51,663 bases of DNA from Alphaproteobacteria bacterium SS10 (lineage in GTDB: Bacteria; Pseudomonadota; Alphaproteobacteria; TMED2). How positions within the stretch are numbered: position 1 is the first letter of the stretch; the number at the start of each line of letters is the position of its first letter. The stretch spans positions 72,940-124,602 of the forward strand of contig JAHCML010000006.1 of NCBI GenBank assembly GCA_019192455.1, in the 5' to 3' direction. The notes under the pieces were generated by a model, which saw nothing but the letters and a program-made list of their open reading frames with translations, ran no database searches and was not told the origin of the DNA. The position numbers were made by a program, and so were the translations under genes. Below, piece after piece: positions 1,706 through 50,204 of this stretch.

Positions 1706-2778
1706 GGGGTCTTCTCATCCCCGTTGGTAAACAAATCCGCCGATGCCCGGCTCTCGATATCCGCCGGGGCCGGCAGACCCAGATAGCGGTAGCCGCTGGC
1801 ACTTAAGCAGCGACCACGTGGCGTCCGCTGAATCAGCCCCTGCTGCAGCAGGTAGGGCTCAATCACCTCTTCAATAACATCGCGCTGATCGGCAAGCGCG
1901 GCGGCCAAGGTTTCGGCGCCAACTGGCCCACCGCCATATTTCTCGGCAAGGCAACTTAGGTAACGGCGGTCCATCGCGTCGAGGCCCTGGGCATCAACCT
2001 CAAGGCGTTGCAGGGCACGGTCTGCGGCGGCACGATCCACCACCTCAACACCATCCATGACGGCAAAGTCCCGAACGCGTTTCAGTAGGCGACCGGCAAT
2101 ACGCGGCGTGCCACGGGCTCGCTTCGCAACCTCCAACGCGCCCGCATCATCCATAGCGATCCCAAGCTTGGTGGCGTTGCGAGAGACAATGGTGGCCAAC
2201 TCTTCATCGGCATAAAATTCAAGGCGCAGCAGGATGCCAAATCGGTCCCGCAGCGGGTTGGTCAACAACCCAGCACGCGTCGTTGCACCAACCAGGGTAA
2301 AGGGCGGCAGATCAATGCGAACGGATCTCGCGGCTGGTCCCTCACCGATGATCAAATCCAGCTGGAAATCCTCCATCGCTGGATAAAGCACCTCCTCAAC
2401 CGCTGGGTTCAGTCGGTGGATCTCATCAATAAAGAGAACATCCCGCGCCTCAAGATTGGTGAGAATGGCGGCAAGGTCACCGGCTTTTGAGAGCATGGGG
2501 CCAGAGGTCGCCCGGAAACCAACACCAAGCTCCCGGGACACGATCTGCGCCAGGGTGGTTTTGCCGAGACCAGGCGGCCCATGGAACAGCGCATGGTCCA
2601 ACGCCTCTCCCCGTTGAGCGGCAGCACCAACAAAGACGGACAGGTTCTCACGCAGCTTTGCCTGGCCAACGAAATCGGTCAGGCGCTCAGGGCGTAGGCC
2701 ACCGTCAACGGCGCGCCCATCCTCGATGTCGCCATCCTGGGGATCGCCTGCCACTAACCTTTCGACGTTATCGCTCAT
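1702..2778 (-). CDS. ruvB: RuvB, Holliday junction branch-migration ATPase
   Basis: Hexameric AAA+ motor that with RuvA drives branch migration of Holliday junctions. 358 residues, normal length. Walker A 'GPPGLGKT' lies at residues 67-74 and Walker B 'LFIDEIHRL' at about 115-123. The '[19 protein letters not shown]' sensor region and the C-terminal winged-helix segment ([11 protein letters not shown]) are all present. Gene order ruvC-ruvA-ruvB is intact, with 10 nt between ruvA and ruvB and a 4-nt overlap with the thioesterase gene downstream. Nothing unusual. Confidence 0.97.
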
Positions 2779-2788
2779 GCGCCCTTAC

Positions 2789-3439
2789 TCATGCTGGTGC
2801 GAGCTCCTTAAGGCTGGCCCGGATGAGGTCATCGATTTTTGCCCCCTCGCCCAGGCTCTGCTGGGCCTTCAAGGCTGCGCGGTGGGCATCCGACCGGTCA
2901 TAACCAAGGTTGGCAAGGGCTGAGACGGCATCATTCACCGCATTTGGGGCAGCATCCGCCACCGGTGCGGCTGCCGCTGGCATCGGTGTGACCACGGCAC
3001 TGCTACCCTTGGTGGGCGTTAAGGCGCTGCCGACCAGCTGCGGGATCTTATCCTTAAGCTCCGAGACAATGCGCTGGGCCAGCTTGGGGCCGACACCGTC
3101 GGCACGGGTAACCGCGCGCTTATCCTCGGAAGCAATCGCTGTGGCCAGATCATTGGTTGAGAGCGCGGATAGGATATTGAGCGCAACCCGACCGCCAACC
3201 CCCTGAACCTTGGTCAGAATTTCAAAGGCTTGCTGCTCTTCCGCCGTCGCAAAACCAAACAGGGTGACCGCATCCTCACGCATTTGCAGGTGGGTCGTCA
3301 GCTTCGCCGGTTGGCCCACGCCACCCAGCTGGCCAAGAGTTCTGGATGAGGCCTGAACCGTAAAGCCGACGCCGCCCACATCGATCACGGCGGTATCTGA
3401 GAAGATGGCGGCAATGGTGCCATTCAACGAGGCGATCAT
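2789..3439 (-). CDS. ruvA: RuvA, Holliday junction DNA-binding subunit
   Basis: Tetrameric Holliday-junction-binding protein that loads RuvB. 216 residues. The N-terminal OB fold begins 'MIASLNGTIAAI'. Helix-hairpin-helix DNA-binding repeats are visible as 'TKVQGVGGRVALNIL' and 'RADGVGPKLAQRIVSEL'. An Ala/Pro/Val-rich flexible linker (about residues 145-165) precedes domain III, 'AVSALANLGYDRSDAHRA', which contacts RuvB. It starts 3 nt after the ruvC stop. Confidence 0.96.
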   Translation of the reverse strand: MIASLNGTIAAIFSDTAVIDVGGVGFTVQASSRTLGQLGGVGQPAKLTTHLQMREDAVTLFGFATAEEQQAFEILTKVQGVGGRVALNILSALSTNDLATAIASEDKRAVTRADGVGPKLAQRIVSELKDKIPQLVGSALTPTKGSSAVVTPMPAAAAPVADAAPNAVNDAVSALANLGYDRSDAHRAALKAQQSLGEGAKIDDLIRASLKELAPA

Positions 3440-48579: not shown

Positions 48580-49422
48580 ATGCTCGATATCTTCGCCGAT
48601 TTTGCAGCACAATTCTACGAAGCAGCCACATTATCCGGCGTGTTCGCGTGTCTTCTACTCTGTTTCAAAGTGAGATTGAACCGGATTGATGCTGTCGCCC
48701 TTGCGCTACTCGGCATTGCGGGCAATGGCCTCTATCACTTTGTCCTGCTGGATCAGTTGCCGCCTGAGGTGAACCTAAACGTGCCACGGGTGATCATGAT
48801 GATCGGCGGTATGGCGGCCCTGGCACTCGTTCTCTTGGTCAGACGACCGCGCAGCTTTGATCGCATTATGATCTTAACCTCCAGTGCGGCTCTCTTCCTG
48901 GTGACCCTGGTTAATCACCTGATCCTGGTCGAGGTGATTATGGAGCAGCGCTTCACCCATCATATCGACGACCATGTTGCCGCCTTCACCGCCGAGCGAG
49001 AGTATGGCCCAGCGCTCCAGCAATACTGCGAGAAGGGCGGATTTGAGTGCATCATCCTACCCCGACGGGCCGATAACTCCCTCGCACCGCATGATCATCA
49101 AATTCCTATCGTGACGCCGGTTGAGACCAACTCACCGCACCACGTCCTTGCCGGCCGGGTGGTTGACCCGGTGAGCAACGCGCAGATCGCCTTGGTAGTT
49201 AACTACCCTGGCACCACACTGCTTGTGCGCGATGACAGCGTGGCAGCACAGCTTTTCTACGATGCCGAGTTCTGGTTCCGGATGGCTCTTCTGACCTTCA
49301 TGTGCCTCTGGAGTGCGGGCATGGTCATCCTAACCCGCCATCACCGCGCGGTTAGACAAGGCGATGTAAATGCCGAAGAGCCCATCACGACCGGCCAAAC
49401 CGGTGGGTTGGTCAGCCCATGA
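48580..49422 (+). CDS. Five-helix membrane protein of unknown function (first of a paralogous pair)
   Basis: 280 residues. Four predicted helices lie in the first half (about 14-30, 37-57, 71-88, 96-118), then an extracytoplasmic domain of about 110 residues, and a fifth helix at about 232-252 before a short cytoplasmic tail. The loop contains 'YCEKGGFEC' (Cys150 and Cys157), matching 'YCDRAGVTC' in the next gene, so the two proteins are paralogues. No kinase, methyl-accepting or GGDEF domain is attached. The stop overlaps the next start by 4 nt (ATGA). Family not recognised. Confidence 0.75.
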   Translation: MLDIFADFAAQFYEAATLSGVFACLLLCFKVRLNRIDAVALALLGIAGNGLYHFVLLDQLPPEVNLNVPRVIMMIGGMAALALVLLVRRPRSFDRIMILTSSAALFLVTLVNHLILVEVIMEQRFTHHIDDHVAAFTAEREYGPALQQYCEKGGFECIILPRRADNSLAPHDHQIPIVTPVETNSPHHVLAGRVVDPVSNAQIALVVNYPGTTLLVRDDSVAAQLFYDAEFWFRMALLTFMCLWSAGMVILTRHHRAVRQGDVNAEEPITTGQTGGLVSP

Positions 49423-50204
49423 TCGATCCGGCACCACTGGCCAAGTTTGCTAGCGTGCTTGAGGTGACCTTCTGCCTGTTGGTGCACCTGCTGCTATTCA
49501 GCTATGTGGTGCAGTTCTTAACCGCGCGCGGTTGGAAACTGGCGCGCCATTGGCAGGTTGCTGGGGTCTTAGTAGCCGCTATCGGCATCAGCACCGCACA
49601 CCAGTTCGGCTTTGGCTTGGCCTATGGCATGTTCCCATTTTCCAATGCCCATATATTGCTGCCCTGCCTGTTGGCTCTCATCATTGTGGTGGTGGATATT
49701 GCGCGACCACAAAACATGAGTTTTGAGCGTGTGCTGTCGATTGCCGCGGTCATTGTGATCTCAATCAGCGCTGGCTTCGGCCAGTTCATGCTGAAGCAGA
49801 TGCTCTATGAGAGCGAGATCAATGATCTTAGTGCCGCCCATGGCAGGGTGATGGCGGGCTTTATTGGAAAGCCAGGCGCCTTCGAAACCTACTGCGACCG
49901 CGCTGGCGTCACTTGCAGCATCAATGTCTGTGATGCTAGCGCATCGGAGCTGACAACCAGCGCTGTAAGGAACGACAGCCTGATGCTCTCAACATGCCAG
50001 GACGGCCGGTCCTATGAACTTGAGGATCAACGCTCAGTTACCGAGATTACAGCGAGATACCAAGCGCTGTTCCATGGCTGGATGACACTGATCTTATTGT
50101 GCTGGGTCAGCCTATTTGGTGTTGCCTGGCTCTTGCATCTGCGCTTTGCCTTTGCCGATCGACGGCTCACCACCTCCCCGGTTAGCGCTGATCAATCGGC
50201 GTAA
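49419..50204 (+). CDS. Five-helix membrane protein of unknown function (second of a paralogous pair)
   Basis: 261 residues with the same plan as its upstream neighbour: helices at about 13-34, 46-68, 76-94 and 104-126, an extracytoplasmic loop of about 90 residues, and a last helix at about 217-240. 'YCDRAGVTC' (Cys159, Cys166) keeps the C-x6-C spacing, and 'SFERVLSIAAV' matches 'SFDRIMILTSS' at the start of helix 4. A third and fourth Cys occur in the loop (CDAS, TCQD). The last 23 nt overlap the end of the convergent prpC gene. Family not recognised. Confidence 0.75.
   Translation: MIDPAPLAKFASVLEVTFCLLVHLLLFSYVVQFLTARGWKLARHWQVAGVLVAAIGISTAHQFGFGLAYGMFPFSNAHILLPCLLALIIVVVDIARPQNMSFERVLSIAAVIVISISAGFGQFMLKQMLYESEINDLSAAHGRVMAGFIGKPGAFETYCDRAGVTCSINVCDASASELTTSAVRNDSLMLSTCQDGRSYELEDQRSVTEITARYQALFHGWMTLILLCWVSLFGVAWLLHLRFAFADRRLTTSPVSADQSA

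Follow-up and report, generated by a model that had tools for sequence, protein, structure and literature searches.

A candidate family of five-helix inner-membrane proteins with a conserved loop cysteine pair in an alphaproteobacterial genome and on Pseudomonas plasmids

Two overlapping genes of Alphaproteobacteria bacterium SS10 raise the question of whether their products are related to each other, whether they belong to any known protein family and what the cysteine-bearing loop that both contain might do. The genes lie on the forward strand of the window, by which the whole analysed stretch of 51,663 nucleotides is meant here. Gene A (P0001; 48580..49422, +) encodes 280 and gene B (P0002; 49419..50204, +) 261 amino acids. 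Both reading frames are present as an earlier note on this DNA had described them, and so is their 4-nt overlap, an ATGA at 49419..49422 (+) in which the ATG of B starts at 49419 and the stop codon of A occupies 49420-49422. The pair is flanked by a divergently oriented queH and a convergent gene for citrate/2-methylcitrate synthase, neighbours which give no hint of function, and a promoter and terminator scan was uninformative.

Kinship of A and B and relatives in the same genome

The common topology that had been claimed for A and B could be reproduced. At a Kyte-Doolittle cut-off of 1.4, five hydrophobic segments are found in A (residues 15-33, 39-57, 68-86, 103-121 and 233-251) and in B (13-31, 47-65, 77-95, 105-123 and 221-239), which gives both the same plan of four helices, a loop of 111 (A) or 97 (B) residues and one further helix; at the lower cut-off of 1.2 a sixth weak segment appears within the loop of A. 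Based on the charges (positive-inside rule), the loop between helices 4 and 5 is predicted to lie outside in both proteins. Likewise, S-F-[DE]-R ahead of helix 4 is common to both (S92-F-D-R95 in A, S101-F-E-R104 in B). A carries H113 within helix 4 and W244 within helix 5, and B has Q122 at the position of a His in most other members of the family. The 4-5 loop contains C150-x6-C157 in A (codons at 49027..49050, +) and C159-x6-C166 in B (49893..49916, +).

As the earlier note had stated, A and B are strongly diverged (identity of about 21%). Their similarity is low but above chance: the local score of 64 (mean of window shuffles: 38.3) was equalled by four of 300 shuffles, and none of the 300 attained the global score. 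By itself this pairwise evidence would be thin. B, however, matched a profile of all other members (leave-one-out) with an E value of 4.4e-6, a score which was reached by none of 500 shuffles, and the proposed paralogy is upheld. One might still argue that A and B have merely converged in hydrophobic composition and share the motif by chance, as their identity is low, as B scored just E 0.024 (met by one of 496 shuffles) against a profile of the seven plasmid sequences only, and as B as single query matched nothing but itself, both in its own genome and among 58 genomes (own included). This idea is countered by the leave-one-out profiles, by the shuffling tests and by the plasmid copies, which were detected independently, and it is considered highly improbable. 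For A it is already refuted at the level of sequence comparison: against the plasmid-only profile, E values (stated for 3000 sequences) were 1.8e-12 for A, 1.9e-18 for P0003 and 1.8e-25 for P0005, with none of 500 shuffles attaining the score in each case.

Three more C-x6-C relatives are encoded elsewhere in the same genome, all family sites lying among chromosomal-looking ORFs. P0003 on contig C5 was matched in a search with A (E 4.9e-4), P0005 on contig C6 by a two-member profile of A and P0003 (E 1.1e-4) and P0020 on contig C9 by a 13-row profile of own-genome and plasmid members (E 1.0e-7). P0020 scored E 0.17 against the plasmid-only profile (0/456 shuffles) and 1.9e-7 in the leave-one-out comparison, which no shuffle attained. 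Judged by these scores, B and P0020 appear as clear members only if members from their own genome are included in the profile. P0005 has no sister gene, and P0020 overlaps an upstream gene of a different kind by 4 nt. P0020 is also flanked by two proteins (L126:659-1273 and 2164-3204) whose C-terminal parts look alike by eye and for which Pfam gave no match at E 0.01. The gene of P0003 shares 14 nt with that of P0004 (L002:501-1127, -, contig C5), a protein of 209 residues with five helices that lacks both the loop domain and the Cys pair. By eye, P0004 retains S-I-D-R, one Trp and F-H-R-R-R; its profile scores are weak (plasmid-only E 0.37, met by 3 of 498 shuffles; leave-one-out 0.004 to 0.61), and it was left out of the member count. 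It is possibly a membrane-only remnant of the C-x6-C family.

Relatives on plasmids and searches for known families

Further relatives, annotated as "hypothetical protein", could be found on plasmids of Pseudomonas, Stutzerimonas and Vibrio. When 72,556 plasmid records were searched by tblastn, P0003 matched hypothetical proteins of 128 (E up to 1), with 6e-5 as the best E value listed and 56-69% of the query covered in the first ten matches; at the same threshold P0005 matched 94, among them Vibrio (4) and FeN3W (E 4e-6). A and P0020 as queries gave no match among these records. P0010, a copy from P. aeruginosa, matched 134 plasmid records, 133 of them with at least 80% of the query covered; as these comprise 214 places in all, many records must carry two copies. 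Except for one Stutzerimonas record, all 134 belong to Pseudomonas. In separate searches, one Rhizobium plasmid record was counted as well. The Pseudomonas megaplasmid proteins WP_019484903.1 (pR31014-IMP), WP_011922830.1 (pQBR103) and WOF81687.1 (FeN3W) are homologous to A and have S/T-x-D-R, a helix 4 with F-H, C-x6-C, a helix 5 with W and a basic tail, but they are only 18-23% identical to A and plasmid-borne. The annotated gene on pMPPla107 (P0018; L119:5845-6429) comprises just the loop and the last helix, and as the tblastn match of P0014 on this plasmid comes in two pieces, a disrupted gene or a wrongly annotated start is possible. Phage records gave no match with P0014 at E up to 1, and no relative was found in viral contigs with A or P0010.

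The statement of the earlier note that no known family can be recognised still holds. In a Pfam scan of the 14 members (E up to 1) none attained a cut-off, a result that counts against an enzyme or transporter of a known kind; Cache, PAS and other sensor profiles are likewise without a match. The highest-scoring candidate that was examined, Tmemb_14 in the Vibrio member P0016 (E 2.5e-4, 22.1 bits, below the cut-off of 24.8), covers helices only and was judged to be a chance match, as were the further Pfam candidates below the cut-off: Holin_9 in P0016, DUF4131 and Oxidored_q2 in P0020, DUF7471 in P0013, DUF3158 in P0014, DUF6185 in P0003 and Lipoprotein_15 in P0008. NCBIfam, searched with seven of the 14 members (P0001-P0003, P0005, P0006, P0008, P0010) and P0004, gave nothing above chance; the rejected candidates were, for B, a YcgN cysteine cluster (E 0.14) and TC0500 (0.25), for P0005 a lipoprotein signal peptidase (0.052) and for P0010 two matches (0.041, 0.1). 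PHROGs, searched with P0001-P0005 (four of the 14 members and P0004), returned a match for P0004 alone (E 0.07), again nothing above chance. PADLOC gave no match for nine of the 14 members, and the best E value in a PDB sequence search with 4- and 13-row profiles was 0.28. Searches of open PMC texts returned no paper whose entry names these proteins, and none for the accessions or locus tags of plasmid copies.

Other genomes were searched with profiles as well. With the two-row profile, the only match among 385 genomes of the class was the own genome; the four-row profile at E up to 0.5 matched 27 of 385, and in each of the 26 besides the own genome the match was only partial. At phylum level the four-row profile matched three of 398 genomes at E 0.005, the two besides the own one both partially (G610: E 2.9e-4, profile positions 44-119; the G600 match contains stop codons), and the 13-row profile two of 398, namely the own genome and a stop-containing stretch at E 0.009; two further genome sets gave 0/16 and 0/7 with the four-row profile. 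As these samples are small parts of each group, the counts do not imply absence from the groups. A search of genome contigs with the two-row alignment gave 107 stretches, none of which was confirmed. Synteny baited with queH (best 80 of 568 confirmed stretches) was equally unproductive: the best locus (L030) has other neighbours, and a four-member profile had no match among the 4908 ORFs (stop to stop, at least 100 aa) of those 80 loci. A regular-expression motif scan of foreign loci yielded mostly wrong-frame high-GC noise and was discarded. RuvB of this genome is at most 76% identical to the matches listed among 288 other class genomes, and a genome search favouring genus and family returned same-class genomes only. 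The source lineage thus looks isolated among the genomes compared.

Conserved residues and the predicted loop domain

The C-x6-C pair in the loop before the last helix is present in all 14 members examined and absent from P0004. As the plasmid copies were collected by overall similarity and not by their cysteines, this is a fair test of the motif, although the 14 members are not all independent, P0006 and P0017 being closely related. Homologues without the Cys pair, which the earlier note had named as a refuting observation, were thus not encountered among them. Of the YC-x6-C that had been pointed out for A and B, the cysteines therefore stand, whereas the preceding Tyr is no family feature. 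In P0005, P0020 and P0016 these two are the sole cysteines. In a 13-row alignment (without P0018) both Cys and a Trp in helix 5 are invariant (13/13). The Arg of S-x-D-R occurs in 12/13, the motif being absent from P0020, and P0005 lacks its Asp. Eleven of the 13 rows have a His in helix 4, ten of them 18 residues past the Arg before this helix and P0020 15 residues past the aligned Pro. A His in helix 5, 8 residues past a Phe near the periplasmic start, is found in 8/13, whereas A, B, P0020, FeN3W_B and the Vibrio member are without it; the same number of rows (8/13) has both His. Chains end 9 to 36 residues past the last hydrophobic segment, and in a tree of the members two of ten inner branches are well supported. 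Going by their sequences, A and B both belong to an undescribed inner-membrane protein family, which has no name in the libraries searched.

An AlphaFold2 model of B from a two-sequence alignment reached a mean pLDDT of 62.8, with a low-confidence transmembrane part. For the 10-residue blocks from 131 to 220, pLDDT was 85, 81, 87, 88, 62, 71, 84, 88 and 78. Within residues ~103-251, from helix 4 to helix 5 (49725..50171, +), the loop is modelled as a compact alpha/beta domain in the order helix-helix-four strands-helix: helix 102-147, helix 152-162 (with C159), strands 165-170 (with C166), 179-184, 187-194 and 197-203, and helix 204-250. As C159 lies in a helix and C166 in a strand, the cysteines would connect this helix with the first of the strands. 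For A the model is of low quality (mean pLDDT 50.9); its elements follow each other in a similar way (helices 93-138 and 143-153, strands 157-161, 202-209 and 212-217, helix 220-265). Foldseek found nothing significant in the PDB (best E 0.086) or BFVD (best 0.099); VIA-align matches with Z up to 8.9 were set aside, as they are largely long-helix proteins aligned to low-confidence helices.

Gene partners and possible functions

The 4-nt overlap had led to the proposal that A and B form a heterodimer. Two clear overlapping family pairs are known from this analysis, the one in the window and the tandem pair P0013/P0014 on FeN3W (14-nt overlap, C-x6-C in both), and the pair on contig C5 (14 nt) is a doubtful third. 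In both clear pairs one member, B or FeN3W_B, lacks the helix-4 and helix-5 His at the aligned columns, a pattern that counts in favour of a heterodimer. Against an obligate heterodimer, five loci (P0005, P0020, the second P. aeruginosa copy, the Vibrio copy and the pMPPla107 copy) are single and have no multi-helix neighbour gene, and on pQBR103, pR31014-IMP, pPlaYM7902A and P108 the family gene overlaps by 7 or 11 nt a gene for a protein of ~300 residues (L112:5537-6448, L113:5638-6516, L114:5537-6442 and L118:6536-7447) in which no segment exceeds the helix cut-off. The tree does not discriminate between one old duplication and other origins of the pairs. Homologues are thus not always paired, and as tandem pairs are not the rule, an obligate heterodimer is unsupported and appears improbable; a heterodimer at the window locus is possible, but does not reflect a rule of the family.

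On the four Pseudomonas megaplasmids the non-membrane protein of ~300 residues, which, unlike in the window, adjoins the family gene (e.g., on pR31014-IMP and pQBR103), is a likely direct partner. Two of these partners (P0007, P0011) were scanned and matched no named family. An annotated DUF3150 protein is encoded upstream at all four sites, and no open PMC text was found that joins DUF3150, plasmid and Pseudomonas. A passage of a paper on a megaplasmid family (Nat Commun 2020; PMC7070040) gives 261 orthologous groups as the core genome of 15 megaplasmids.

The reading that is tentatively preferred is that of a disulfide-clamped periplasmic binding or sensing domain which is coupled via helices 4 and 5 to cytoplasmic partners. 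The Cys pair is conserved and, by predicted topology, periplasmic, and its position argues for a structural disulfide first. This disulfide would tie the helix leaving membrane helix 4 to the first strand of the compact domain, which would be held between helices 4 and 5 and may bind a periplasmic ligand or partner. A signal could then pass through helices 4 and 5, with the common His in the former and the Trp in the latter, to the cytoplasmic S-x-D-R loop and the basic tail as putative docking site. In the window and on FeN3W the partner docking there would be the other membrane copy, on the four megaplasmids the helix-less protein of the overlapping next gene. Judging from the conserved residues of both helices and from the cytoplasmic S-x-D-R loop, the membrane part would be more than an anchor. 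Membrane receptors with periplasmic Cache/PAS-type domains also hold an alpha/beta domain between two membrane helices. The likeness of the family to them is one of predicted secondary structure, i.e., of the order of elements, with neither a sequence match nor a significant fold match, and in contrast to such receptors the family chains have no room past the last helix for a kinase, cyclase or chemotaxis output domain.

Two other functions have to be weighed against such a binding or sensing domain. A rather unlikely one is that of a membrane thiol-redox or cofactor protein, in which C-x6-C cycles between dithiol and disulfide, electrons are exchanged with a quinone or haem that the two His in helices 4 and 5 bind, and the tandem B copy is a degenerate subunit. 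It would account for the Cys pair in every member examined, for the two His at similar predicted depth in those eight rows that have both and for their joint absence from B and FeN3W_B in the two clear tandem pairs. Genes of the thioredoxin system are found in the vicinity of two megaplasmid copies (on FeN3W, L115:9395-10988, trxB and peroxiredoxin genes at 2.6 and 3.6 kb; on pMPPla107, L119:3864-4181, trxA at 1.7 kb), but such proteins are normally cytoplasmic and two neighbourhoods may be chance. The helix-5 His is, however, missing in five rows, A and B among them, and FeN3W_B has a His one turn earlier within helix 4. DsbB and VKOR are multi-helix inner-membrane thiol oxidases with periplasmic cysteines, a CxxC and a second Cys pair. 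The family resembles them in its helices and predicted periplasmic cysteines, yet CxxC occurs in none of the 14 members, and no DsbB or VKOR match was obtained in Pfam (14/14) or NCBIfam (7/14 scanned).

Slightly less probable again is a membrane protein of plasmid transfer or host interaction, e.g., an accessory of a thin-pilus or type IV transfer system or an exclusion factor, with the chromosomal copies as relics of integrated plasmids. Besides the occurrence of a relative on 134 plasmid records, several of the neighbourhoods read on eight of the plasmid records would fit: on pQBR103 the block has annotated parAB on one side and a pilus/type II secretion-like operon on the other, on pR31014-IMP the gene is followed by a HerA/TrwB-type ATPase (beside it are sub-threshold SprT-like and HD matches) and on FeN3W pilV is found ~4.4 kb beyond the family gene. 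For the copy on the Vibrio plasmid and that at the second P. aeruginosa locus, by contrast, no transfer gene is annotated within 6 kb, and the ORF lists of the four own-genome sites, three of which were judged mostly by the first 45 residues per ORF, contain no recognisable transfer or pilus gene. In our estimate, a binding or sensing domain hence ranks before a redox or cofactor role, and this before plasmid transfer.

A bolder extension, which is quite improbable as it stands, would be a new periplasmic redox or ligand sensor common to Pseudomonas megaplasmids and an isolated alphaproteobacterial lineage, in which a cofactor-bearing copy (with the helix-4 and helix-5 His) works with a cofactor-less copy or a cytoplasmic partner and the Cys pair serves as the switch. 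The plasmids that carry the family include those of human P. aeruginosa isolates and also pQBR103 of P. fluorescens SBW25, and the conserved C-x6-C, helix-4 His, helix-5 Trp and S-x-D-R are direct targets for mutagenesis.
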